Shown here in pieces: positions 2,293-36,551 of a DNA stretch of 64,000 bases (positions are counted from its first letter, which is position 1; each line of letters begins with the position of its first letter). The notes beneath the pieces were generated by a model. It had not been told where the DNA came from. It searched no databases and saw only the letters and a program-made list of their open reading frames with translations. The position numbers were made by a program, and so were the translations under genes. The DNA comes from Pyrinomonadaceae bacterium (GTDB lineage: Bacteria > Acidobacteriota > Blastocatellia > Pyrinomonadales > Pyrinomonadaceae), in contig JAHCHG010000002.1 of assembly GCA_026129865.1 (NCBI GenBank), forward strand, positions 62,001 through 126,000, given 5' to 3'.

Positions 2293-2757
2293 CTATTCTC
2301 CGTTTATCGCATCGAGCGCCGCGCCGATATCTCCTAAAAAGGCGTCGACCTCGGCTTTTGTATAGTAATTTCCAAGTGCGAGTGCTATCAGGGAGTTGAC
2401 GGTTTCGGGCGCATCGACAACCGCGCCGCCGGCGCGCAGGCTGTCCTTATTTAAAGGACTTCCGTCGCCGTATTCGAGCAGGGCGTACCAGACGGTGCCG
2501 TCCGGTTCGGTAAATTTCAGCGGCGGCTGGATAAATCCGTCTGCGTTGCACCATAGCAGAAACGGGTCGGGATTGTTTTGCGAATCGATCTGCGGAATCG
2601 CGCCGTCGGCATCGAGGATCGTAACGATCTCAAATCGCTGGATCGAACCGTCGAGCGTGTAATCGTTTTCGCACAGTTCTATTTTCAGCGGCTTCCCGGC
2701 GGCGGGTTTGCCGTTTGCCAGGTAAAATGTTCCGGTAATCTGTCGTTTTCTGATCAT
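2293..2757 (-). CDS. Tail-fibre-like protein
   Basis: 154 residues. The first 110 residues form a beta-rich domain (RQITGTFYLANGKPAAGKPLKIEL...WYALLEYGDG) similar in style to phage adhesin head domains. The C-terminus carries NYYTKAEVDAFLGDIGAALDAI, a form of the YYTKxEVD coiled-coil motif that recurs in tail fibre and baseplate upper proteins. It lies between a lectin-like tail protein (two bases away) and the LRR tail protein, in one operon. A trimeric fibre linking the tail tip to the LRR protein is a reasonable guess. No enzyme motif is seen. Confidence 0.6.
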   Translation of the reverse strand: MIRKRQITGTFYLANGKPAAGKPLKIELCENDYTLDGSIQRFEIVTILDADGAIPQIDSQNNPDPFLLWCNADGFIQPPLKFTEPDGTVWYALLEYGDGSPLNKDSLRAGGAVVDAPETVNSLIALALGNYYTKAEVDAFLGDIGAALDAINGE

Positions 2758-2759
2758 TT

Positions 2760-3758
2760 TTATTGCACCTCGATCGCGTCAAACGCGTAGTTGAATCTAA
2801 AGGAAACCTCTCCGCCCTGTTCTCTGATCGGCGAAGCCGTTTTGACGATCGAGATCCTTTCGGGCGAAAACCTGTGATCGCGCAGAGCAAAAGGTGCGAT
2901 CGGATAGTGGAGCGCGTGAAACGCCTCGGCGGCTTCGTATTCTTCCTGGCGTCGGAGCGCAAACGGCAGTTCGAACGATCGCCGCATCTGCCCGCGCACC
3001 AGCGCTTTTTCCTGCCCGGAATACGGTTCGCTCAAATAATGTTCGCGCCCGCGTTCGGACGACCGCGCGCGGTCGTGCGGAAAGGGAAATATCAGGTGGG
3101 TCGCGTCATATTCTTCCCACAATCGAAATTTCATCGCGAAATACTGGTAGATCGACTCGCGCTCTTTGGCGGCTTTTTCCTGCGAATAGATCAGCTGTTC
3201 AACAAACCAGCCCTTAAATTTCCGGTCGGTCAGGGTTTTCTGCTGCCCGATCTGGATGCCGTCCATCGTAATTCCGGGCGGATATTTGATCTCGATCAGC
3301 TTAAAATTTGCGCTCATCGGCGCTTTTTGGGTCGATTCGGTAAAAATGCGGTTTGCCTTGCGGTATTCATAGCTCCCGAATGCGGTGTAGCCGAAATCGA
3401 AAAATTCGTCGGTGCCGGTGTCGCCGGTCAAAACGTCGCCCGCCGTCGCGCCGGATAATATTCCGCGATACCCCGTAAATACGGCTTCATCAGCCGCGCA
3501 GACGAGGAATATATGCCGAGCGGTCAGCGCGCCGGTGTATTTCAGCGGAGTTCGCGAACCGTTGAAATACCATGCCGGTCTGCCGTTTAAAACCGCCGAG
3601 GTCAGCACCGGCTCATTGCCGACGGTGCACGAAATATGTCGCCCTTTTCCCGAATAATCGTAGATTATCTCGTGCCCGGATTCGCCCGCCTGGTACTGGT
3701 GCCAGGCTTCCATATCTCCGAGCGGCAGAATATTTTTTTTCGTCCAATCGTCGATCAT
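2760..3758 (-). CDS. Tail protein with concanavalin/LamG-like domain
   Basis: The start at 3758 has GGAGG five bases upstream and forms an ATGA overlap with the stop of the preceding gene; a longer frame to 3788 has no such signal. The 332-residue product has a jelly-roll-like stretch at about 15-215 with features of the LamG/concanavalin fold (YDYSGKGRH near the start, RPAWYFNGSR, ILSG, and a C-terminal GWFVEQLIYSQEKAAKERESIYQYF typical of such domains). A compact C-terminal part (about 240-332, ALRDHRFSPERISIV) follows and may anchor it to the tail. It is probably a carbohydrate-binding tail component. Coupling to the hub gene upstream implies matched production. Confidence 0.6.
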   Translation of the reverse strand: MIDDWTKKNILPLGDMEAWHQYQAGESGHEIIYDYSGKGRHISCTVGNEPVLTSAVLNGRPAWYFNGSRTPLKYTGALTARHIFLVCAADEAVFTGYRGILSGATAGDVLTGDTGTDEFFDFGYTAFGSYEYRKANRIFTESTQKAPMSANFKLIEIKYPPGITMDGIQIGQQKTLTDRKFKGWFVEQLIYSQEKAAKERESIYQYFAMKFRLWEEYDATHLIFPFPHDRARSSERGREHYLSEPYSGQEKALVRGQMRRSFELPFALRRQEEYEAAEAFHALHYPIAPFALRDHRFSPERISIVKTASPIREQGGEVSFRFNYAFDAIEVQ

Positions 3759-5437: not shown

Positions 5438-6559
5438 TTAATCCAGATCGAATGGACTTTTGGCGTTATGCGCGACGATCATCTTTTCCGCCGTGTCGCC
5501 GGCACAGTAAATATGCCCGGTTTCGAGCTCGATCTTTAGCACGTCGCCGCGCCCGGCGCGCGAACCGAGCAGCATTTTCGACGCGGCGGTTTCGTGTCCT
5601 GCGGTCGTCAAAACTGCATCGCCGGGTTTGAATTTCGACACCGCCAGACCGTCGCGATCGGAATCGTTCCGAATCGCTTTATGCGACCGGCTCGAATAGC
5701 ACACCGCGCCGTTTGCCGCGATAAATTCAAAGATCTCGACGTTCTCAAAAAGCTCCAGGCTTTTTATCCGGTTAAATTCTTTTGCGATCGGGTCGAAAAG
5801 CAGATCGGTTGCACGCAAAAAACCGACCATCGCCGTGCGTGGCTTACCGCCGCCGCCGTCGATCAGGCAGTATTGATCAAGTCTAGGGCATGATGGTCGT
5901 ATGCCGCCTCCCGTGTTGCCGCCGGTTCCGGGAATGTCCTGATCCGGCGGATAGCGGTGCTGCATACCGCCGAAATGATGCGCGTTGCCTTTGCCGTCGC
6001 AGCCCAATTTCGCGGTCAAATGATGATTGCATTCCGTTTCGCCGCCCGCGTACGCGCAGGTTTTGGCATCCTTAAAGACAAATTCGCACTGCTGCGCAAG
6101 CGTCCGGCTGCAGACGATGCCGCCCGGCGCGATCGTGTCGGCAACAATGTCGAACGAAACACGCAGATCGTCCGCTTCCGGACGCTGGACCGTACCCCGA
6201 AACATCTCGATCCATTCGTTTACGCCGGTCGGTTCTCCGTTTGCGAGCTGCCGGTAATATCTGCCGATAACCGCCTCCGCCTGCTGCCATTTCTGCCAGT
6301 TTGCCGCAAGGTTCAGCCCCGCGGCGCGGTCTTTATTTTGTATCGAAACGGAAACGCTGTCGGTCGCGCTTTCCAGCGTTTGCAGGATCTCCGACACATT
6401 TTCCAAATCGTTCGGGTAAATTCCGGCGGCGATATTCAGCGGCGACGTAGCGAATTTCAGCGTCGTCGAATCGGGGAAATCGAGATCGAGCGTATAGTCG
6501 ATCTCGCGTTCGGCTCCGGATAAGATTGTCGTCAGATTTGTCGATAATGTTCGCGGCAT
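5438..6559 (-). CDS. DUF2163/gpL-type minor tail protein fused to a Hint-like domain
   Basis: 373 residues. Residues 1-200 match the plan of DUF2163 (phage BR0599) tail proteins, including a four-cysteine cluster (C150, C158, C168, C177) comparable to the metal or Fe-S site of lambda gpL. After a Gly-rich linker (211-219) the protein continues with features of a Hint (hedgehog/intein) fold. These are a block A-like cysteine C231 (DQYCLID), a block B-like histidine H293 (SRSHKAI), KPGDAVLT, and a C-terminal GHIYCAGD...IVAHN with H364-N365. The residue after HN is Ala rather than Cys/Ser/Thr, so splicing is unlikely, but autocleavage remains possible. The gene abuts the tape measure gene (stop and start adjacent) and is followed by the hub gene. 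Confidence 0.7.
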   Translation of the reverse strand: MPRTLSTNLTTILSGAEREIDYTLDLDFPDSTTLKFATSPLNIAAGIYPNDLENVSEILQTLESATDSVSVSIQNKDRAAGLNLAANWQKWQQAEAVIGRYYRQLANGEPTGVNEWIEMFRGTVQRPEADDLRVSFDIVADTIAPGGIVCSRTLAQQCEFVFKDAKTCAYAGGETECNHHLTAKLGCDGKGNAHHFGGMQHRYPPDQDIPGTGGNTGGGIRPSCPRLDQYCLIDGGGGKPRTAMVGFLRATDLLFDPIAKEFNRIKSLELFENVEIFEFIAANGAVCYSSRSHKAIRNDSDRDGLAVSKFKPGDAVLTTAGHETAASKMLLGSRAGRGDVLKIELETGHIYCAGDTAEKMIVAHNAKSPFDLD

Positions 6560-9500
6560 CTATCTGATTTTTCCTTGTTTTTTCGCTCCGTTTATCAATT
6601 TGACCAGCGTCCGCTCGCCGCCGTCGCTCTGCATATAGCCGTCGGCGCGTTCGTCAAACGTGTCGCCGTTCAAAACGACCGTCAGATTTGGTTTCACCAC
6701 TATCTGCGGCGGCTGCGGCGCGAAAACAGGTCTCGTGCCCGACAGATCTGCGCCGCCCGCAAAGCGCGGACGCGGCATTGAGGGTTTCGACGGATAATTG
6801 GGTATCTGCGCCTCGGCAAAAACATCGAATCCCGCGCTGGCGCGAATGCGCGCCTGCTGCTGCGGATTTAAGACCATCTCACCGCGCGAGATCATCGCCA
6901 GCAGATCGTCTTTTTTGTCGAAAACGCCCGGTATCAGCCCGTTCGGCTTGAAATAATCGGCAAAATAATTGCCGCCGGCAAATTCCGGCAGGATCCGCTT
7001 TGTCCGGTCTCCCGCTGCCCGCGCTTCCTCGACCGCCTTTTTCAGCTGCTCCATCAATCCGTCCGGAACCCGGTCGATCTCAGCCAGCTTTTGCTGAATT
7101 ATTCTCTGCGATTCCTTACGGTATTTTTTCGATTCAAACTGCAGTCCGAATCCTGATGCGATCTGATTACGCAGTTCGCGACCGCGCGAAATGGCAGAAT
7201 CGGGGTCGGCGCGCAGGAATCTCACGTCTTCGATCAGCTGGCGAAGTTCGTTAAACGCATCGGCAAAGCCCTGATTCAGCTGCGGCATTTTCTCGCGTTT
7301 ATCGCGTTTTCGTTTCGGATCGCCGCCGAATAGCCCGAACAGCGCACCGATTCCCGCGCCGATCGCCGCGCCCCACGGTCCGAACATCGAACCGATGCTC
7401 ATGCCCGTTCCCGCGCTCGACAGAATTCCGCCGAAACGACCGCCGATCAATCCGCCGGCAAGCGCGGCGATGTCGCCTGCTCCGCCCAAAATGCCTGCCA
7501 GACGGCTCGAACCGCCGAAGACATTTTTTCGCGGAGCGAAAATTCCGCCGTCTTTTGTGCCGAACAGTCCTTTTATTGAAGAAAGAAAACCTCCGCCGCC
7601 GGGCTGCCCGAGCCCGAGCGCGTTCGGTCCCAGACCCGAAAGCGCCGGTCCCGCGCCCGGCACGCTTTGACCGCCGCCGAAATTAAAGATGCCGCCGCCG
7701 GCGTTGCCGCCGAATATGCTGCCGAGATTGATGCCGCCGATGCTCGGTAAGCCCGCCGCCGCGCCGCCGGAATTCAAAACCAATTGGCGGAGCAGCTTGT
7801 TCGTTTCGTCGAGTTTGCCGACGATCGGTTTAGCCACCGGATTGTCGGTCGCGTTCGGATCGAACCCGAGAATGTTCGTCGCCAAAAATTCCGACAATTT
7901 ATTTATGAAATTGTCTTTTACGCGATTGGCAAAATTGGTGAAAAGACCCTGAATATCGCCTTCGGAAAGCAGAGTGATCGTTTCGCGGAAGAAATCCGTC
8001 AGCTCTGCGTGAAGTCTTCGCAGCTCGGTCTGGGCGTCGATCTCCGCCGCCAGATTCAAGAGATATTCTTTCTGCGCCGGATCCAGATCGCGGTAGCCGC
8101 GCTCCAGATCGCGCAGCGTCCGCTCGTATTCGGTCAGCTCGCGACCGTTTCGGCGAATCTGATCGAGTTCGTCTTCGAGCGATTGTTTGAATGAGTCAAA
8201 CCGCTGATCGCGCCGGGCGATACTGTCTTTATTAAATCCTTCGGTCGCGCCGCGGAGTTTTGCGACGACCTCGTCGATCTTCGCCGCGTCGAACGTGCCG
8301 AATGCGGCGAGCATCGTCAGCCATTCGCGGACATATTCGGCAAATTTATCTGTGTCGATCAGGCTGCCGGCGGTGAAAAGTCCGCGAATCTCGGTCAGCG
8401 CGCCGCCGTCAAACCGGAGTTCGGCGATCTGCTCGATCGAGCGGAGAAAATCCAGCGCGTCCGATTTATTGAGGTCTTCGGTCGCGGTACGGAAATTTTC
8501 CGAAATGCCGCCCAGCGCATCTGCCGCCGCGCGCGCCGCCTCGCGCAGCTTTTTGGCTGTCCCGGCGTCCGCCGCTTTCTGCATTTCGATCCGGGTTTTT
8601 TCGATCGCCGGCGTCAGGACGTTTTCGAAGAATTCCGCCGTAAATGCGCCCGCGTCTTTGAGCTTTCGGATTTCCAGGTCGAACATCGCCAGCGGCGTAA
8701 TGCCGTTGTCAAACTCGGCGCCGAGCTCGATCACCTGCCGCGCCGCATCTTCGCGCAGCTGTTTGAAATTTTCGAGCGTCGATTTCAACAGGTCGAGCTC
8801 CGCGCGTTTTGCCGCCGCCGCATTTTCCGTCGCCGGCATCATCACGACCAGCTGGTCGTCCAGCACACCGAGCTCGTTTATCTCGCGGATCGTCGCTTCG
8901 ATAGACTGCAGATTGGATTCGAATTCGCGCAGCGCGGTCAGTTCCTCCTGGATCGCGTCCGCGCCGCCTTCGATCAGTTTATTGATTCGATATCGGGTTT
9001 CCTCGATTTCGCGCAATGACTGAGCAGCGGCATCGAATTCGATAAATGCAAATTCTTTTCCTCCGCCTGCCGCTCGTTGCGTTTTTTCGAGTACTTTTGT
9101 CGTATATTCCCGAAATGACGGCTCGCCTTTACGAAACACCTTCGGATCGTCATATCGATGCATCGCACCCTGACCGCCATACCACGCCGCCGCCGCCATT
9201 CTGACGGCTTTATTGACGTCGCCGCCGGATTTTTTCATCGCCGCCTGCAGGTATTTCCCCATTTCGCCGTTAAAAACCTTTATCTGGGCATCGACATCGT
9301 TTTTAAACTGTTCGGCAGATAGGATTTTTCCGACGTATTTCTTCGTCCAGTTGGGAATGTTCGCCGGCATCACCTGAAACAGGCTGAGTGCACCCGTCCG
9401 CGCATTTCTGGCGTTAATATTTCCGCCGGATTCCTGTGCCATCGTGCCCTTGCGCATTGCGTCCAGAACCGACTGCAAATCACCCAGTTCGTCTTTTAGC

Positions 9501-27873: not shown

Positions 27874-28173
27874 ATGGATCACGTACTCCGAATGAATTAC
27901 GGTCAGGCATTGTTCGATTTCGTTCCCAGGACGAAACTCACCCTCGCCGCCGTCGAACAGCGGATCAGAAAATTTCGAATAATCGAACCCTGCCCGTCGC
28001 GTCCGACGCTGATCGCCATGTGTCTCGACGGCACGTTCGAATCCGTCGGCAAGGACGGCGGCGGATTTCCTGCGCCGACCCGGTTCGGCTGGCTGATCTA
28101 TGAAGAAAGCTTTTTAAATTGGGCTCGCCAATTGGATGGACTCGCGCCTGTGGATCTGCGCAAAGCGGCGTGA
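27874..28173 (+). CDS. Small hypothetical protein, possible DNA-binding
   Basis: 99 residues on the plus strand between minus-strand genes. A second possible start lies at 27892. The sequence has YGQALFDFVPRTKLTLAAVEQRIRKFRIIEPCPSRPTLIAMCLDGTFES and TRFGWLIYEESFLNWARQL. The latter resembles the recognition part of MerR/excisionase-like proteins (xxxGWxVxxxSLxxWxRxL). A 13 bp bidirectional terminator follows 20 bases after the stop, which supports a real transcript. It could be an excisionase-like or helper DNA-binding protein. No ribosome site is evident. Confidence 0.5.
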   Translation: MDHVLRMNYGQALFDFVPRTKLTLAAVEQRIRKFRIIEPCPSRPTLIAMCLDGTFESVGKDGGGFPAPTRFGWLIYEESFLNWARQLDGLAPVDLRKAA

Positions 28174-28193: not shown

Positions 28194-28228
28194 AAAAAAA
28201 GCGTCCTTTGAGCGGGACGCTTTTTTTT
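28194..28228. terminator. Bidirectional terminator
   Basis: GCGTCC (28201-28206) pairs with GGACGC (28215-28220), flanked by A7 and T8 which extend the stem and serve as U tracts in both directions. It separates the convergent plus-strand gene at 27874 from the ImmA-type gene. Confidence 0.9.
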
Positions 28229-28259
28229 CGGCTTGTACCGAATTTATTCTCCGGGAAAA

Positions 28260-28694
28260 CTAAATCCTGAATTCCCGCAATATTTCAAATCTGATCCGCA
28301 GCATTTCCGCCGGGTAATATCCGTCCGAATAGCTCTCGTTCTCATTTTCGATCAGATATTTCGGCAGCAGCGCGACCGCTGCAAAAAAATTCGCCTCTCT
28401 ATCCATTTTCCGCGCCGTTCCCCGGCTGAAACGGTGATTTGCCGTGTGCAAAAAATGGTGACCGAGCTCGTGAAAGGCTATCCAGCGCCGTTCGCCCTCG
28501 CCTAAGTTAGCTCGCAGGATGATCATATTCCGGTTTGAAAACCGCAGATATTCGCCCTTCGCTCGTCTCCCGATCGATTCCACAAAGATCAGCCGCTCGC
28601 GCACGCAGATCGCTTGCAGATCTTTTATCCCGAAGATCTTCTCGTTCCATTCCGGCAGTTTCTTCTTTATCAGCTGTGAGAGAATAAACGACAT
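28260..28694 (-). CDS. ImmA/IrrE-type metallopeptidase
   Basis: 144 residues. The zinc-protease motif HELGH is at 75-79 in FHELGHHFLHT, with E100 in KMDREANFFAAVALLP as the likely third ligand; this is the M78 (ImmA/IrrE) pattern. Family members cleave or inactivate an HTH repressor after DNA damage (ImmA on ImmR of ICEBs1, IrrE on DdrO of Deinococcus). Here it lies two genes downstream of the repressor, in the same direction, so they are probably co-transcribed in the lysogen. The repressor lacks an S24 autoproteolysis domain, so this peptidase is a good candidate for prophage induction. Confidence 0.85.
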   Translation of the reverse strand: MSFILSQLIKKKLPEWNEKIFGIKDLQAICVRERLIFVESIGRRAKGEYLRFSNRNMIILRANLGEGERRWIAFHELGHHFLHTANHRFSRGTARKMDREANFFAAVALLPKYLIENENESYSDGYYPAEMLRIRFEILREFRI

Positions 28695-28700
28695 TTCCGG

Positions 28701-28949
28701 CTATTTTCGCTTCATCTTTTTCGACGCCGTTTCCAGATCGGTACCGAAATCGTCCATCCGGTCAAATACGATTCCCGTCAGCTGCGCCAGATGATCGAAC
28801 CGCCGGGTCAGCAGCGCCTCCGCACGCCTGTGCTGTGCCCGCATTTCGGCAAAACGCTCTTCCCACACGGTTTCACTCTTGATCTGCATCCGGTTCATCT
28901 CGGCTATCTGCTCCGCAATTATTTTTATATTTTCTTCAACGCTTTTCAT
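28701..28949 (-). CDS. Small coiled-coil protein, copy 1
   Basis: 82 residues, starting MKSVEENIKIIAEQIAEMN and continuing as amphipathic helix (WEERFAEMRAQHRRAEALLTRRFDHLAQLTGIVFDRMDDFG). It is a paralogue of the next upstream gene: the first about 20 residues are nearly identical and the second helix (LAQLTGIVFDRMDDFG versus LAELTGIAFKTLDDLG) is conserved. It lies between the peptidase and repressor genes in a lysogenic operon. It might modulate either partner. No known domain. Confidence 0.6.
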   Translation of the reverse strand: MKSVEENIKIIAEQIAEMNRMQIKSETVWEERFAEMRAQHRRAEALLTRRFDHLAQLTGIVFDRMDDFGTDLETASKKMKRK

Positions 28950-28970
28950 ACACCTTACCGCTCTTTGTGC

Positions 28971-29291
28971 TCAGCTCCTCGATCTTCGCTTGACCCGCCG
29001 TCCCGCTTCTTCCATATCGTCGCCCAGATCGTCCAGCGTTTTGAACGCTATTCCCGTCAGCTCTGCCAAATGTGCAAATTTCGCATCCAGATGCCTGCGC
29101 TGTCGCCGCCATTCCTCATCCGATTCCGCCGCCCGCGCGTCCCGTTCGGCAATTCGAGCGTCCCATTCGGCTACGCGCGCCCGCATTTCGGCAAACCGCT
29201 CTTCCCAATCGGTCCGGCTTTTGATGTTCATCCGGTTCATCTCGGCTATCTGCTCCGCAATTATTTCTATATTTTCTTCAACGCTTTTCAT
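28971..29291 (-). CDS. Small coiled-coil protein, copy 2
   Basis: 106 residues, paralogous to the gene at 28701-28949. It has the same N-terminus (MKSVEENIEIIAEQIAEMN) and C-terminal helix, but an extra heptad-rich insert (RVAEWDARIAERDARAAESDEEW) in the middle. The DNA of the two 5' ends (28840-28951 and 29182-29293) is close to 90 percent identical, which means a recent tandem duplication. Strong coiled-coil nature suggests dimerisation. Function unknown; position ties it to the repressor/ImmA switch. Confidence 0.6.
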   Translation of the reverse strand: MKSVEENIEIIAEQIAEMNRMNIKSRTDWEERFAEMRARVAEWDARIAERDARAAESDEEWRRQRRHLDAKFAHLAELTGIAFKTLDDLGDDMEEAGRRVKRRSRS

Positions 29292-29347
29292 ACTTCGTTT
29301 ATATAAATGATCCGGATCGCCCCAAACCGGAAAAGCTTTTTTTCCGA

Positions 29348-29932
29348 TTATTTTTTCTCCGCCCTCTCGTCGTCAAACGTCCGCGCCCGCGGATGCAGCG
29401 GTTTTGCCATTATCCGCCGTTCCTTTTCCAGTTCCCGCAGCAAAAATAATTCCTTTTCGCTCAGCTCCTCGTCCGTTTCCTCCACCCGATATCTGCCCGT
29501 CCCGTCGTCAAAATGCAATCCGCGCAGCTCCTGCAAGTCCCGCTCCGGCTCGCCGCGCTCGTACCGCTTTAATTCGTCCGATTTAATTCGCACGTCCAGC
29601 TCGCTCATTATCAGCTCAAGCCGCTTTTTCAAAAATATCGGATCGTCCGTTTTTTTGATCTCAATTTCCAAATTTTCGAATATATCGTCGTTTTCCGTCT
29701 CGTCCGAGGAAACCGGTTTTTCCGGAAAGGGATCGCCTTCGCCGGTTAGAAGCCAGTGTAAGTTACAATTCGTTACTGCCGAAATGCGCTGAAGCTTCTC
29801 TCCGTCCGGAATCCTCCCCGACACGTAATTCTGGACGGCAGGCGCTGTCACGCCCAATTTATCAGCTATTTCTTGGTTTGTAGCTCCGTCGAAGACACGC
29901 TTCAAGCGGGCGCCAAATTGCGAACGCGGCAT
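29348..29932 (-). CDS. Phage repressor, lambda-type HTH without S24 protease domain
   Basis: 194 residues. Residues 5-65 form an XRE/CI-type HTH (ATNQEIADKLGVTAPAVQNYVSGRIPDGEKLQRISAVTNCNLHWLLTGEG). The remainder is a charged helical domain (DPIFLKKRLELIMSELDVRIK, ...EELSEKELFLLRELEKERRIM). There is no S24 serine/lysine dyad, so RecA-stimulated self-cleavage is not expected; the ImmA-type peptidase downstream may do this job. It is transcribed leftward, divergent from the Cro/Ner-like gene. Repeated TTACTG-type half-sites stand in the shared intergenic region and one inside its own coding part. Confidence 0.85.
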   Translation of the reverse strand: MPRSQFGARLKRVFDGATNQEIADKLGVTAPAVQNYVSGRIPDGEKLQRISAVTNCNLHWLLTGEGDPFPEKPVSSDETENDDIFENLEIEIKKTDDPIFLKKRLELIMSELDVRIKSDELKRYERGEPERDLQELRGLHFDDGTGRYRVEETDEELSEKELFLLRELEKERRIMAKPLHPRARTFDDERAEKK

Positions 29933-29953
29933 TATTTTATCAATAAACTTACA

Positions 29954-30027
29954 ATTCGTTACTTTTTCCTTGACGTCAGTAACAAATCGTCTTATTCTGT
30001 CCTTACTACTCAGGTAGTCAGTAACAG
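29954..30027. promoter_or_regulatory. Operator region between repressor and early genes
   Basis: Half-sites of the form ATTCGTTACT/CAGTAACAAAT occur at 29954-29963 (plus), 29977-29987 (minus) and 30018-30027 (minus). Another perfect ATTCGTTACTG copy lies inside the repressor gene (29769-29778). The two at 29954 and 29977 form an inverted pair. Spacing and placement over the early promoter fit repressor and Cro binding. Confidence 0.65.
29970..29998 (+). promoter_or_regulatory. Early rightward promoter
   Basis: TTGACG (29970-29975) and TATTCT (29993-29998) are separated by 17 bp, a good sigma70-type match. A CAGTAAC half-site (29977-29987) lies in the spacer, so repressor binding would block polymerase. 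Transcription would start about 40 bases before the Cro/Ner-like ATG. Confidence 0.65.
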
Positions 30028-30046: not shown

Positions 30047-30292
30047 ATGACCGAAAACGAGATACGAAAACTTTTAATCGACAAAGGACTTAAACAGAGC
30101 GACATCGCGCGCCGTATGGCGGGCGATTTCGGACTCGCTTACCAATCGGCGCGCGTTTCGGTAAATCACCTGATCACCGGCGCCCGCTGGTTCCCGAAAT
30201 ATGCCGACTGGCTGAAAAAAAATTACGGCATCGTCATCGATAAGCCCGATTGGGCAAAACCCGTCCGCGAGCGTCTGCGCGCGGCGGCGTAA
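30047..30292 (+). CDS. Cro/Ner-like small HTH regulator
   Basis: The ATG at 30047 has AAGGAA upstream; the same frame is open further left but crosses the operators and repressor start. The 81-residue product is one helix-turn-helix domain: IRKLLIDKGLKQSDIARRMAGDFGLAYQSARVSVNHLITGARWFPKYADWLKKNYGI. It is the first gene of the rightward early transcript and divergent from the repressor, the place of cro in lambda and ner in Mu. It probably shuts down repressor synthesis and limits early transcription. It could be read from the promoter at 29970. Confidence 0.75.
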   Translation: MTENEIRKLLIDKGLKQSDIARRMAGDFGLAYQSARVSVNHLITGARWFPKYADWLKKNYGIVIDKPDWAKPVRERLRAAA

Positions 30293-30426: not shown

Positions 30427-30696
30427 TTAAACGAGTTTCAGACCGCTACCACCGGGCGATGGCTCGCCGTCTTCGGCACCGTCTGGCGGAGAATAAAGAT
30501 CGCGAAACGGCAGACCGCGCTGCTCCAGCAGCTCAAGAAAATAATCTATCGTGTGATCAGCCCATAGATCGATTCTCCGGTCCGCCTCCGCATCCGGTAT
30601 CTCCGTAATTTTTGAAACGATAAAAAAGATCGTTTCGATCTTTGCCTCCAGCATCGCTATTTCCTGCCGGAGCTTTACCAAATCAGAATTTTTCAT
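30427..30696 (-). CDS. Possible small coiled-coil protein on the minus strand
   Basis: 89 residues: MKNSDLVKLRQEIAMLEAKIETIFFIVSKI is a convincing heptad helix, followed by an acidic part (RRIDLWADHTIDYFLELLEQRGLPFRDLYSPPDGAEDGEPSP). It reads against all neighbouring early genes and no Shine-Dalgarno precedes its ATG; the upstream bases are the complement of the Rha-like gene's ribosome site. A plus-strand ORF (30396-30608) covers the same DNA but its protein is low-complexity after 35 residues. The minus-strand version is the more protein-like, but either could be silent. Confidence 0.4.
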   Translation of the reverse strand: MKNSDLVKLRQEIAMLEAKIETIFFIVSKITEIPDAEADRRIDLWADHTIDYFLELLEQRGLPFRDLYSPPDGAEDGEPSPGGSGLKLV

Positions 30697-30710: not shown

Positions 30711-31286
30711 ATGTCAGTCAACCCGAAATTAACAGTAAAAAATGGAAATGTTTATGCCACGTCGATTGATATCGCCAAATACTTTCAGCGCGGTCATCGA
30801 GAGGTGCTCCGTGCTATACGCAACATTTTGCAGCATCTTTCAGAGGAGTTTTTACGGCTGAATTTTCAGCCGGTTTATGGTGCAAAATTGCACCATAAAC
30901 GAACCGAAATTTATCAATTAACGAAAGATGGATTTGCGATGATCGCGCTCGGTTTCACCGGCGAAAAGGCGATCAAATTTCGCGAAGCGTATATCACCGC
31001 CTTCAACGAAATGGAGGCAAAACTCCGCGCCAGGGAATTTCACACCGCTCAGGACCGCCAGTTAAAACTTTTTCCCGAATTTAACCGTGCGGTCAGCGAA
31101 TCGCGACCGGCTATGCCGCTGCGTTTTGCCTACGAACAGACGGTTCGCCGCGGCATTCCCGCGCCGGTGCCGAAAACCCTGCGCCGGATGGTCGCCGCGG
31201 GCGAGATCGAAGGCTACAAGGCGTCCGGCGTCTGGCTCGTTTACCAGGACTCGTTTGCCGCTTTTTTGAAAAACCGCCGCGTCTGA
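30711..31286 (+). CDS. Rha family phage regulatory protein
   Basis: 191 residues with AAGGAG before the ATG. Residues 1-105 match the Rha domain. Its marks are VKNGNVYATSIDIAKYFQRGHREVLRAIRNIL, FQPVYGAKLHHKRTEIYQLTKDGFAMIALGFTGEKAIKFREAYITAFNEMEAKL. The C-terminal part (about 130-190) is a second HTH-like unit (RRGIPAPVPKTLRRMVAAGEIEGYKASGVWLVYQDSF), like excisionase or antirepressor C-termini. Rha of phi80 interferes with growth when the host lacks IHF. In this early position it is probably a DNA-binding regulator. Confidence 0.85.
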   Translation: MSVNPKLTVKNGNVYATSIDIAKYFQRGHREVLRAIRNILQHLSEEFLRLNFQPVYGAKLHHKRTEIYQLTKDGFAMIALGFTGEKAIKFREAYITAFNEMEAKLRAREFHTAQDRQLKLFPEFNRAVSESRPAMPLRFAYEQTVRRGIPAPVPKTLRRMVAAGEIEGYKASGVWLVYQDSFAAFLKNRRV

Positions 31287-34787: not shown

Positions 34788-36551
34788 ATGAAAACTATGT
34801 CGAACCGCAAACTCTCAGAATCGGATTGTGCCGATATTTGCGCTGCTCTTAAAGGGCTCAAGGGTGCGAAACTGTCGGCGGAAGCCGCGCGTTTAGCCGA
34901 ATTTTACCGGGTGTCCAAGGCGACGATTTACGAACGCACGCGCTCCGCGCGTCCGCGCCGCAAAAAGCGCAGCGATGCCGGAACGCGAAAGATCGATCTG
35001 ATGGAAAACGAAGCCGTTCGCGGCGTGGCGGAGTTTGTTGCCAATCAAAAACTGGCGCCGGTGCTGGCGCTCGAAACCGTCAGGGAAAATCCTCATATTT
35101 TTGGGGAACTGCCGGAAATGTCTATCGGCACCATGCGCCGGTATTTACGCGAACACGGCATCAGCCGCGTTCAGCAAACGAAAATTCGTATGATTCACAG
35201 ATCGTTTAGGGCTAAATTGCCCGGCGACATTTTTCAATTCGATATGTCGGGCGTCAAGGAACGCTGGGTCGATGTCCGCACCAGACGGATCCACAAAGTC
35301 TCCGTTCTGGAGGTTTCCAAAAATCACGCCAATCGCCGCAGCGACCGGATACCGCTCTGGAAATTTACCCTGGTCGACGATCATTCCTCGAAAAAATTTG
35401 CGCGTTTTGCCGCCTGTTCGAAACCGAACACGCTGCACGTCGTGGAGTTTTTAAAACAGGCGTTTTCGGCGATGGGTTTGCCGAAAATGCTCTATACCGA
35501 TCGCGATGCGATCATCCATAACAAACGGATGCAGCGCGGCGCGGCATTTATCAACGAGGCGTTCAAAACCAGCGGCGGATTTCAGATCGTCGCCCATACG
35601 CCGGGCAATCCGCAGGCGACCGGCAAGGTCGAACGCGCCCACCAGATCGTCGAAGAATACGAACGTCTGATCGGCATCAAAGCCGAATTCGGCAACCAGC
35701 CGCATATCGAATCGCTTAACCGGTTTGCCGATTGGATGTGCGACCGCTATAACAACCGGACACACAGCACGCTCGGTTCGGCGCCTAATATTTTGTTCAG
35801 AAATACGACCGGTGCCGTGCGCGAGATCGACCCGGCGCAGTTCGATGCCGCGTTCAAGGCTCGCGATCTGGTTTGCCGCGTCAATCCGGACGTTTCGATC
35901 GCGGTCGACGGCGTCAAATACCAGCTGTCGCGCCGCGCCGCCGATCCGTTTATCGAGCTTGCCGCCGCCGGTGCGAAGATCGAGGTTTACTGGATCGACG
36001 ACGACGATTTTTTTGCCTGCATAACGCCTGCCGGCGACGAATATATCGTCGAAAAGATCGAGGCGCGAGCCGACGATGCCGGCGAATTCAAATCCTTGCC
36101 CGAAACAAAAAGCCAATCGACGCGCAAGGCGCTCAAAGAGTCGCAGAATCTGCGAAAATCCGAGATCAAGGAGATCCAGAAAACGCAGGACGAACCCGTT
36201 CTGATCGTTCCCGGCATCGACACCGATATTCCCGAAAAAGAATCGACCGGCATTCTCGAATTTCCGCAGAAAACCGACGGGGGCGACCGCGACCGGCTTG
36301 ACGAGCTGACCCATAATATCGCCGCCGAACGCCATTACCGGCGCAATCTGGATCTCTTCGACGCGCTCGATCTGATGCAGAACGAAGGGCTTGCCCCGGC
36401 AAAACCGTGCGGCGAATTGACCGAAACCAAATCGTGGCTGCGCGGCATTTTCGCCGGACGCGATTTGATCGACGAAGACGAGCTCCGGACGGCGATCGGC
36501 GCGCGCGACCGGCGAAACGACGAACCCAAACGCGCTTTGAAATTTGCTTAA
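34788..36551 (+). CDS. MuA-like DDE transposase
   Basis: 587 residues. An N-terminal HTH (about 8-55, KATIYERTR) and basic linker precede a second DNA-binding region (about 70-130, FGELPEMSIGTMRRYLREHGIS). The rve/RNase H-like core has the acid triad D152 (FQFDMSG), D238 (LYTDRDAII) and E282 (NPQATGKVERAHQ). A beta-barrel region typical of Mu transposase C-terminal parts follows (about 360-430). The C-terminal tail is charged and probably contacts the ATPase. The protein joins phage ends to target DNA in integration and replicative transposition. The MuB-like gene starts six bases downstream. Confidence 0.93.
   Translation: MKTMSNRKLSESDCADICAALKGLKGAKLSAEAARLAEFYRVSKATIYERTRSARPRRKKRSDAGTRKIDLMENEAVRGVAEFVANQKLAPVLALETVRENPHIFGELPEMSIGTMRRYLREHGISRVQQTKIRMIHRSFRAKLPGDIFQFDMSGVKERWVDVRTRRIHKVSVLEVSKNHANRRSDRIPLWKFTLVDDHSSKKFARFAACSKPNTLHVVEFLKQAFSAMGLPKMLYTDRDAIIHNKRMQRGAAFINEAFKTSGGFQIVAHTPGNPQATGKVERAHQIVEEYERLIGIKAEFGNQPHIESLNRFADWMCDRYNNRTHSTLGSAPNILFRNTTGAVREIDPAQFDAAFKARDLVCRVNPDVSIAVDGVKYQLSRRAADPFIELAAAGAKIEVYWIDDDDFFACITPAGDEYIVEKIEARADDAGEFKSLPETKSQSTRKALKESQNLRKSEIKEIQKTQDEPVLIVPGIDTDIPEKESTGILEFPQKTDGGDRDRLDELTHNIAAERHYRRNLDLFDALDLMQNEGLAPAKPCGELTETKSWLRGIFAGRDLIDEDELRTAIGARDRRNDEPKRALKFA

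Follow-up and report, generated by a model that had tools for sequence, protein, structure and literature searches.

Genetic organization of the locus

The window (the whole 64-kb stretch of DNA analysed here, part of a 4.4-Mb Pyrinomonadaceae genome) contains a four-gene operon on the - strand, which encodes an HTH repressor devoid of an S24 domain, two duplicated small proteins and an M78 (ImmA/IrrE-type) metallopeptidase; within the Mu-like prophage, this operon faces the genes for Ner, GemA and MuA. The features are as follows.

28198..28229, no strand assigned: terminator-like hairpin with A and T runs, 3' of immA, recognized by eye (stem at 28210-28222 on the + strand)
28260..28694, - strand: immA-like M78 metallopeptidase, 144 aa (H75, E76, H79, E100)
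28701..28949, - strand: cc2, 82 aa, second tandem copy
28971..29291, - strand: first tandem copy, cc1, a small charged protein of 106 aa
29348..29932, - strand: lysogeny repressor (rep), 194 aa, without S24 domain (HTH at residues 9-69)
29763..29777, - strand: operator-like site AGTAACGAATTGTAA, exact, within the 5' portion of rep
29949..29963, - strand: operator-like site AGTAACGAATTGTAA, exact, in the rep-ner intergenic region
29970..29998, + strand: promoter-like site that would serve the early (ner) operon and overlaps the third operator-like site
29978..29992, + strand: third operator-like site, one mismatch to the degenerate 15-mer
30047..30292, + strand: early protein of 81 aa resembling Ner, encoded divergently from rep, with relatives at the same place in sister phages
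30711..31286, + strand: Rha-type phage regulatory protein (Phage_pRha, 4.6e-25)
34788..36551, + strand: MuA-like transposase, the mark of a transposable phage (phrog_310, 4.3e-31)

The features and coordinates that a first-pass annotation had assigned to the repressor and the peptidase are all present as given. The gaps of 56, 21 and 6 nt that separate rep, cc1, cc2 and immA fit a single operon. The HTH region of the repressor matches Pfam HTH_3 (7.6e-9) and Phage_CI_repr (4.4e-6), and the protein was rightly described as lacking an S24 domain, since no match to the S24 profile was obtained up to E = 1. No S24 domain was found on the window's contig; the S24 matches of this genome sit on contigs C9, C19 and C21, the last of which carries a LexA-type match (1.8e-16). 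The single-sequence structural model of the repressor (pLDDT 48) is unusable beyond the HTH.

On the + strand, the early genes follow in the order Ner-like, Rha-type, GemA-like (phrog_286, 7.6e-8) and MuA; the match to Mu Gam is weak (0.0019) and below the cut-off. The MuA-type transposase, together with these Mu-type early genes, confirms that the element is a transposable phage, as first proposed. With up to two mismatches allowed, the 15-mer is found at 6 places in the 64 kb against 2.2 expected, a count which is only descriptive since the pattern was derived from these very sites. The promoter scan as a whole remained at chance level (3 sites found versus 2.5 expected). Beyond the operon, a small ORF convergent with immA (27874-28173, + strand) carries a PSRPT..DGTFES-like motif, and look-alikes of this ORF were seen by eye in the sister phages L031, L002/L038, L039 and L043.

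The duplication of the two genes located between the repressor and the peptidase, also noticed in the first-pass annotation, is clearly confirmed: the 5' ends of cc1 and cc2 are identical at 104 of 115 nt, and the proteins share 66% identity. Apart from cc1 and cc2 themselves, the 119 genomes of the family gave no more than weak matches, in G013 and G118; there was one short match within a much larger protein (L182) in IMG/VR, and none in 50,697 phage records; the weak matches are partly repetitive-looking. At a guess, cc1 and cc2 may modulate or bridge the repressor and the peptidase.

The M78 peptidase and its probable partner

The 144-aa protein matches the Peptidase_M78 profile above its curated cut-off (4.4e-13) and displays the motif H75-E76-x-x-H79. 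The residues H75, E76, H79 and H83 are invariant in all 19 aligned homologues, and E100, which we take to be the expected third zinc ligand, is nearly so (18/19; by eye, the L077 protein has a Q). The claim that the lysogenic operon carries an HExxH M78 peptidase is thus well founded. An AlphaFold model built from 16 sequences (pLDDT 83) was closest in Foldseek to Deinococcus PprI/IrrE (8sln and 8slm; probability 1.00, the best E-value being only 3.7e-3), and VIA-align gave a Z-score of 11.9 for CapP and of 10.0-11.2 for IrrE/PprI over 132-135 residues, unrelated zinc proteases reaching Z 5-6, well below these values. Both the profile match and the IrrE-like predicted fold place the window peptidase in family M78 (IrrE/ImmA).

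Its nearest relatives are phage-borne (48% identity with L031, a viral contig; 43-44% with L002/L038 from G029), and the ImmA proteins of the window, L031 and L038 constitute a supported clade (95/89), in which the window branch is long (1.37 versus 0.3 for L031). In L031 and L038 the immA gene lies directly behind an HTH gene; no HTH neighbour was found in L032. Among phage records, the sole match to the window ImmA comes from a Bacillus phage; the 21.9 kb read there contain a recombinase gene in place of MuA. More broadly, an M78 homologue (E <= 0.001) is present in 47 of the 119 family genomes, and most of those outside the nearest relatives belong to one genus, g22 (41 genomes, G044-G084). 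Many family genomes also encode another M78 protein, in most cases of some 200-240 aa, which is distinct from the phage-borne one (e.g. G000:C18:280846-281172).

The C-terminal domain (CTD) of the window repressor was subjected to 15 pairwise comparisons with shuffled controls, including cc1 and cc2, and none was significant when the number of tests was allowed for; the best of the 15 involved L040 (17/500 shuffles) and L065 (52/2000 shuffles). The CTDs of the L031 and L038 repressors are clearly alike (0/500 shuffles). The HTH of the window repressor is most like the L040 and g22 type. As its CTD is not significantly similar to those found beside the closest ImmA proteins and its HTH resembles those of L040 and g22, repressor and peptidase may have different histories, and the window pair may be recombinant. 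The window CTD has no significant relative, and its cleavage by the window ImmA is regarded here as probable.

Apparent exchange of the induction protease among related phages

The window genes were compared with 20 MuA-positive regions of the family, a subset beside which many further MuA places lie outside the comparison, and with the viral contigs L031 and L183. Nine phages having several early or packaging genes in common and a complete repressor region were retained: the window, L031, L038 (G029), L039 (G069), L040 (G044), L043 (G033), L044 with its continuation L184 (G028), L045 (G072) and L183. From the 20 MuA regions, L038, L039, L040, L043, L044 and L045 were thus kept, and L041, L042 and L046-L057 left out. 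MuA is in view in seven of the nine phages and lies outside the stretch read in L031 and L183; the transposase closest to that of the window is from L045 (59%).

Eight of the nine repressors lack S24. An M78 gene is located behind the repressor in four phages, after cc1 and cc2 in the window and directly behind the S24-less HTH gene in L031, L038 and L039. Two phages have a separate S24 protein in the same slot (L040, 4581-5015, - strand, 3.8e-20; L043, 3718-4146, - strand, 1.4e-19). The L184 repressor (2559-3398) is of the classical type with a fused S24 domain (2e-29), and the M78 profile found no match up to E = 1 in 11.5 kb of this region. In L045 and L183, no protease accompanies the repressor, which ends in a host-type CTD and is followed by a gene for a signal-peptide-like protein, as judged by eye (8880-9320 and 6204-6683, respectively). 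Neither M78 (up to E = 1) nor S24 (up to E = 0.001) was detected in the whole 37.9-kb L183 record, which may be a fragment; on the G072 contig carrying L045, S24 is absent and no M78 match passes the cut-off. Each phage thus has one candidate route of repressor inactivation, and the lysogeny module appears to have been swapped independently of the rest. The gene contents of this lineage show the putative protease function to be a replaceable module (M78 in four phages, separate S24 in two, fused S24 in one, none in two), so that the protease used for induction seems to be exchanged within the lineage.

The arrangement in L040 and L043 amounts to a split version of a LexA/CI-type repressor. The simple rule that a missing S24 domain means ImmA was rejected, since L045 and L183 have neither and L040 and L043 possess the separate S24 protein. 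Among the regions left out, L056 (G106) encodes near MuA a single 290-aa HTH-M78 fusion (6417-7289, - strand), a one-chain version of the switch, and L041 (G001) has overlapping HTH and M78 genes near MuA; M78 control thus appears to recur in other Mu-like groups of the family. An HTH protein with a fused S24 domain is encoded near MuA in L042 (G042) and L046 (G019).

A chromosomal HTH-M78 pair with the same repressor tail

On the chromosome of genus g22, an HTH gene that stands alone (~180 aa) adjoins an M78 gene (e.g. L058:7524-8680). In L058, L059 and L062, genes resembling xerC and trmFO are found beside the pair; otherwise, the seven g22 regions compared have largely unshared surroundings, and no phage genes were noticed by eye. 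The CTD of these repressors has the consensus EWFxxEGREYPxDFGVVFFxGWExFxxEEKxxAxxDAKKVLDRxL, and a search with the corresponding profile yielded 40 places, distributed over 37 of the 119 genomes, all of them g22. Within the genus, the CTD-bearing repressor and the M78 homologue are both present in 37 of 41 genomes and both absent from the remaining four (G049, G050, G054 and G060); when present, the two genes are within about 1 kb of each other in 33 genomes and apart in G063, G070, G077 and G080. The three extra CTD places correspond to a contig-end fragment (G070) and to the phage repressors of L039 and L045, and L183 is a further phage with this CTD (66% over 68 residues). The phage repressors with the g22-type CTD are located as follows.

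L045:8074-8883, + strand: repressor of a phage without its own protease
L183:5503-6207, + strand: repressor of a phage without its own protease
L039:8519-9091, + strand: repressor of a phage with its own M78

The L045 CTD shares 45-64% identity with 23 chromosomal CTDs, for which the mutual average is 58%, and its HTH part aligns only weakly with the chromosomal repressors. The M78 of L039 falls among the chromosomal M78 proteins of g22 (95/96), so that in this phage tail type and peptidase type go together. Taken together, this distribution suggests that the CTD is the part recognized by M78 peptidases, and L045 and L183 may use the peptidase of their host. The chromosomal M78 of g22 belongs to a different branch from that of the window, and these observations therefore support the principle and not the window pair directly.

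A clear LexA (E under 1e-10) is encoded by 14 of the 41 g22 genomes versus 76 of the 78 other family genomes. The pair is nonetheless no simple replacement for LexA: it is found in 13 of the 14 genomes with LexA and in 24 of the 27 without, which shows no mutual exclusion, and three genomes have neither. A search of the literature found nothing on IrrE/DdrO in Acidobacteria.

Discussion

From the architecture of the locus and, above all, from the comparison of related phages, we consider it probable that this Mu-like prophage has an ImmR/ImmA-type switch between lysogenic and lytic growth, with the M78 protein as the likely anti-repressor. In the lysogen, the HTH repressor would probably bind the AGTAAC-type sites between rep and ner and hold down the early operon (ner, the rha-like gene, the gemA-like gene and muA); on a signal, the M78 zinc peptidase would probably cut the repressor behind its DNA-binding domain, and with the peptidase as trigger, induction would need no self-cleaving S24 domain.

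The likeness to the ImmR/ImmA system of ICEBs1 from Bacillus subtilis, already proposed for this locus, lies in a single operon which runs divergently to the early genes and combines an S24-less HTH repressor with an M78 peptidase, and in the presence of several operator-like sites, which are pattern-based here. It is upheld by this anatomy and by the lineage comparison, in which M78 or a separate S24 protein fills the slot behind the repressor; the window CTD has no significant similarity to the CTDs beside the closest ImmA proteins. In contrast to ICEBs1, the window represents a transposable phage in an Acidobacteria genome, with two extra duplicated genes between the pair. The window repressor is also longer (194 aa) than ICEBs1 ImmR, which has 127 aa and is cut in a linker of the C-terminal region (PMC8960796).

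The Deinococcus IrrE(PprI)/DdrO system, in which a peptidase likewise inactivates an HTH repressor, provides with CapP the closest solved fold, but IrrE, with solved chains of 240-248 residues, is longer and controls a chromosomal repair regulon, whereas the window protein has 144 aa and is phage-encoded. With phage Mu c/Ner, the locus shares the divergence of repressor and Ner and a Mu-like early operon; Mu is not known to have an M78 gene behind c. No description of an M78 switch in a transposable phage was found in the literature searched, and one report describes a single strain with ImmR/ImmA and C/Ner switches in different prophages (PMC11318856).

The first-pass annotation had also proposed that induction would be independent of RecA-stimulated self-cleavage. 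This follows from the missing S24 domain, but not independence from RecA itself: ImmA-type prophages can be RecA-dependent, RecA-independent or even RecA-repressed (PMC12637031). Since their need for RecA differs in this way, the claim is limited to S24 self-cleavage.

The window element being Mu-like, its repressor might also be controlled as in Mu. Host proteolysis, for example by ClpXP, removes the Mu repressor, which is equally without S24, and the M78 protein of the window would then act elsewhere, for instance on the repressors of other prophages. That the window CTD does not match the other M78-linked CTDs fits such a scheme, but the occurrence of M78 behind the repressor in four of the nine phages, and its replacement by proteases of another family in three of the nine, make it unlikely. 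The mismatch of both repressor type and ImmA type with those of the relatives, the long ImmA branch and the intervening genes without relatives could alternatively betray a recent recombinant, whose ImmA no longer recognizes the repressor and whose degenerate switch leaves the prophage to be induced otherwise or never; we regard this as improbable, however, given the intact immA frame, the retention of all zinc-site residues and the tight gene spacing.

That the HTH-M78 pair would be a toxin-antitoxin system or a defence regulator (CapH/CapP-like) and not an induction switch is suggested by the rank of CapP among the best structural matches, by a PADLOC hit to CapP (2.5e-8) and by an HTH/M78-like pair described as a toxin-antitoxin system in Brucella. 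Yet cc1, cc2, the Ner-like protein and the 30427-30696 ORF are all without a PADLOC match, and the HTH gene occupies the position of the lineage's master repressor, divergent from ner, which renders this interpretation very doubtful indeed.

For an ImmR/ImmA-type switch, a precedent for the action of one peptidase on the repressors of several elements is offered by Listeria. MpaR, a DUF955 (M78-type) peptidase of a cryptic phage element, has been proven at the bench to cleave CI-like repressors, namely those of the Listeria monocin and of phage phi10403S, including prophages without their own peptidase; the cleaved repressors have a common conserved region downstream of the HTH, where the cut occurs (PMC6872733). 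The MpaR targets without their own peptidase parallel L045 and L183 with their host-type CTD. In contrast to the cryptic-element-encoded MpaR, the candidate partner here is a stand-alone chromosomal pair across one Acidobacteria genus, known from sequence alone.

These elements can be assembled into a model of modular induction, which we put forward tentatively, as a possibility falling somewhat short of an even chance. The protease would be swapped between M78, S24 and nothing, and the portable CTD would be a recognition tag for M78; L045 and L183 would have dispensed with a protease of their own and would wear the tag of a chromosomal DdrO/IrrE-like pair, so that the host peptidase would decide on their waking. 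In the window, where repressor and peptidase would differ in origin, cc1 and cc2 may form a bridge between the two. What a specialist would find surprising is that proteases are exchanged and that phages devoid of a protease carry a host-type tail.

If this is true, the sensor-protease of the lysogeny switch can be replaced within a lineage of transposable phages without change to the rest of the early region, and some of its members may hand the decision over to a host peptidase by carrying the tail of the host repressor. Since a chromosomal repressor and phage repressors that differ in their HTH domains have the same tail, the recognition of repressors by M78 peptidases becomes directly testable. 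The finding also draws attention to the HTH-M78 pair on the chromosome of an Acidobacteria genus from which LexA is patchily missing.
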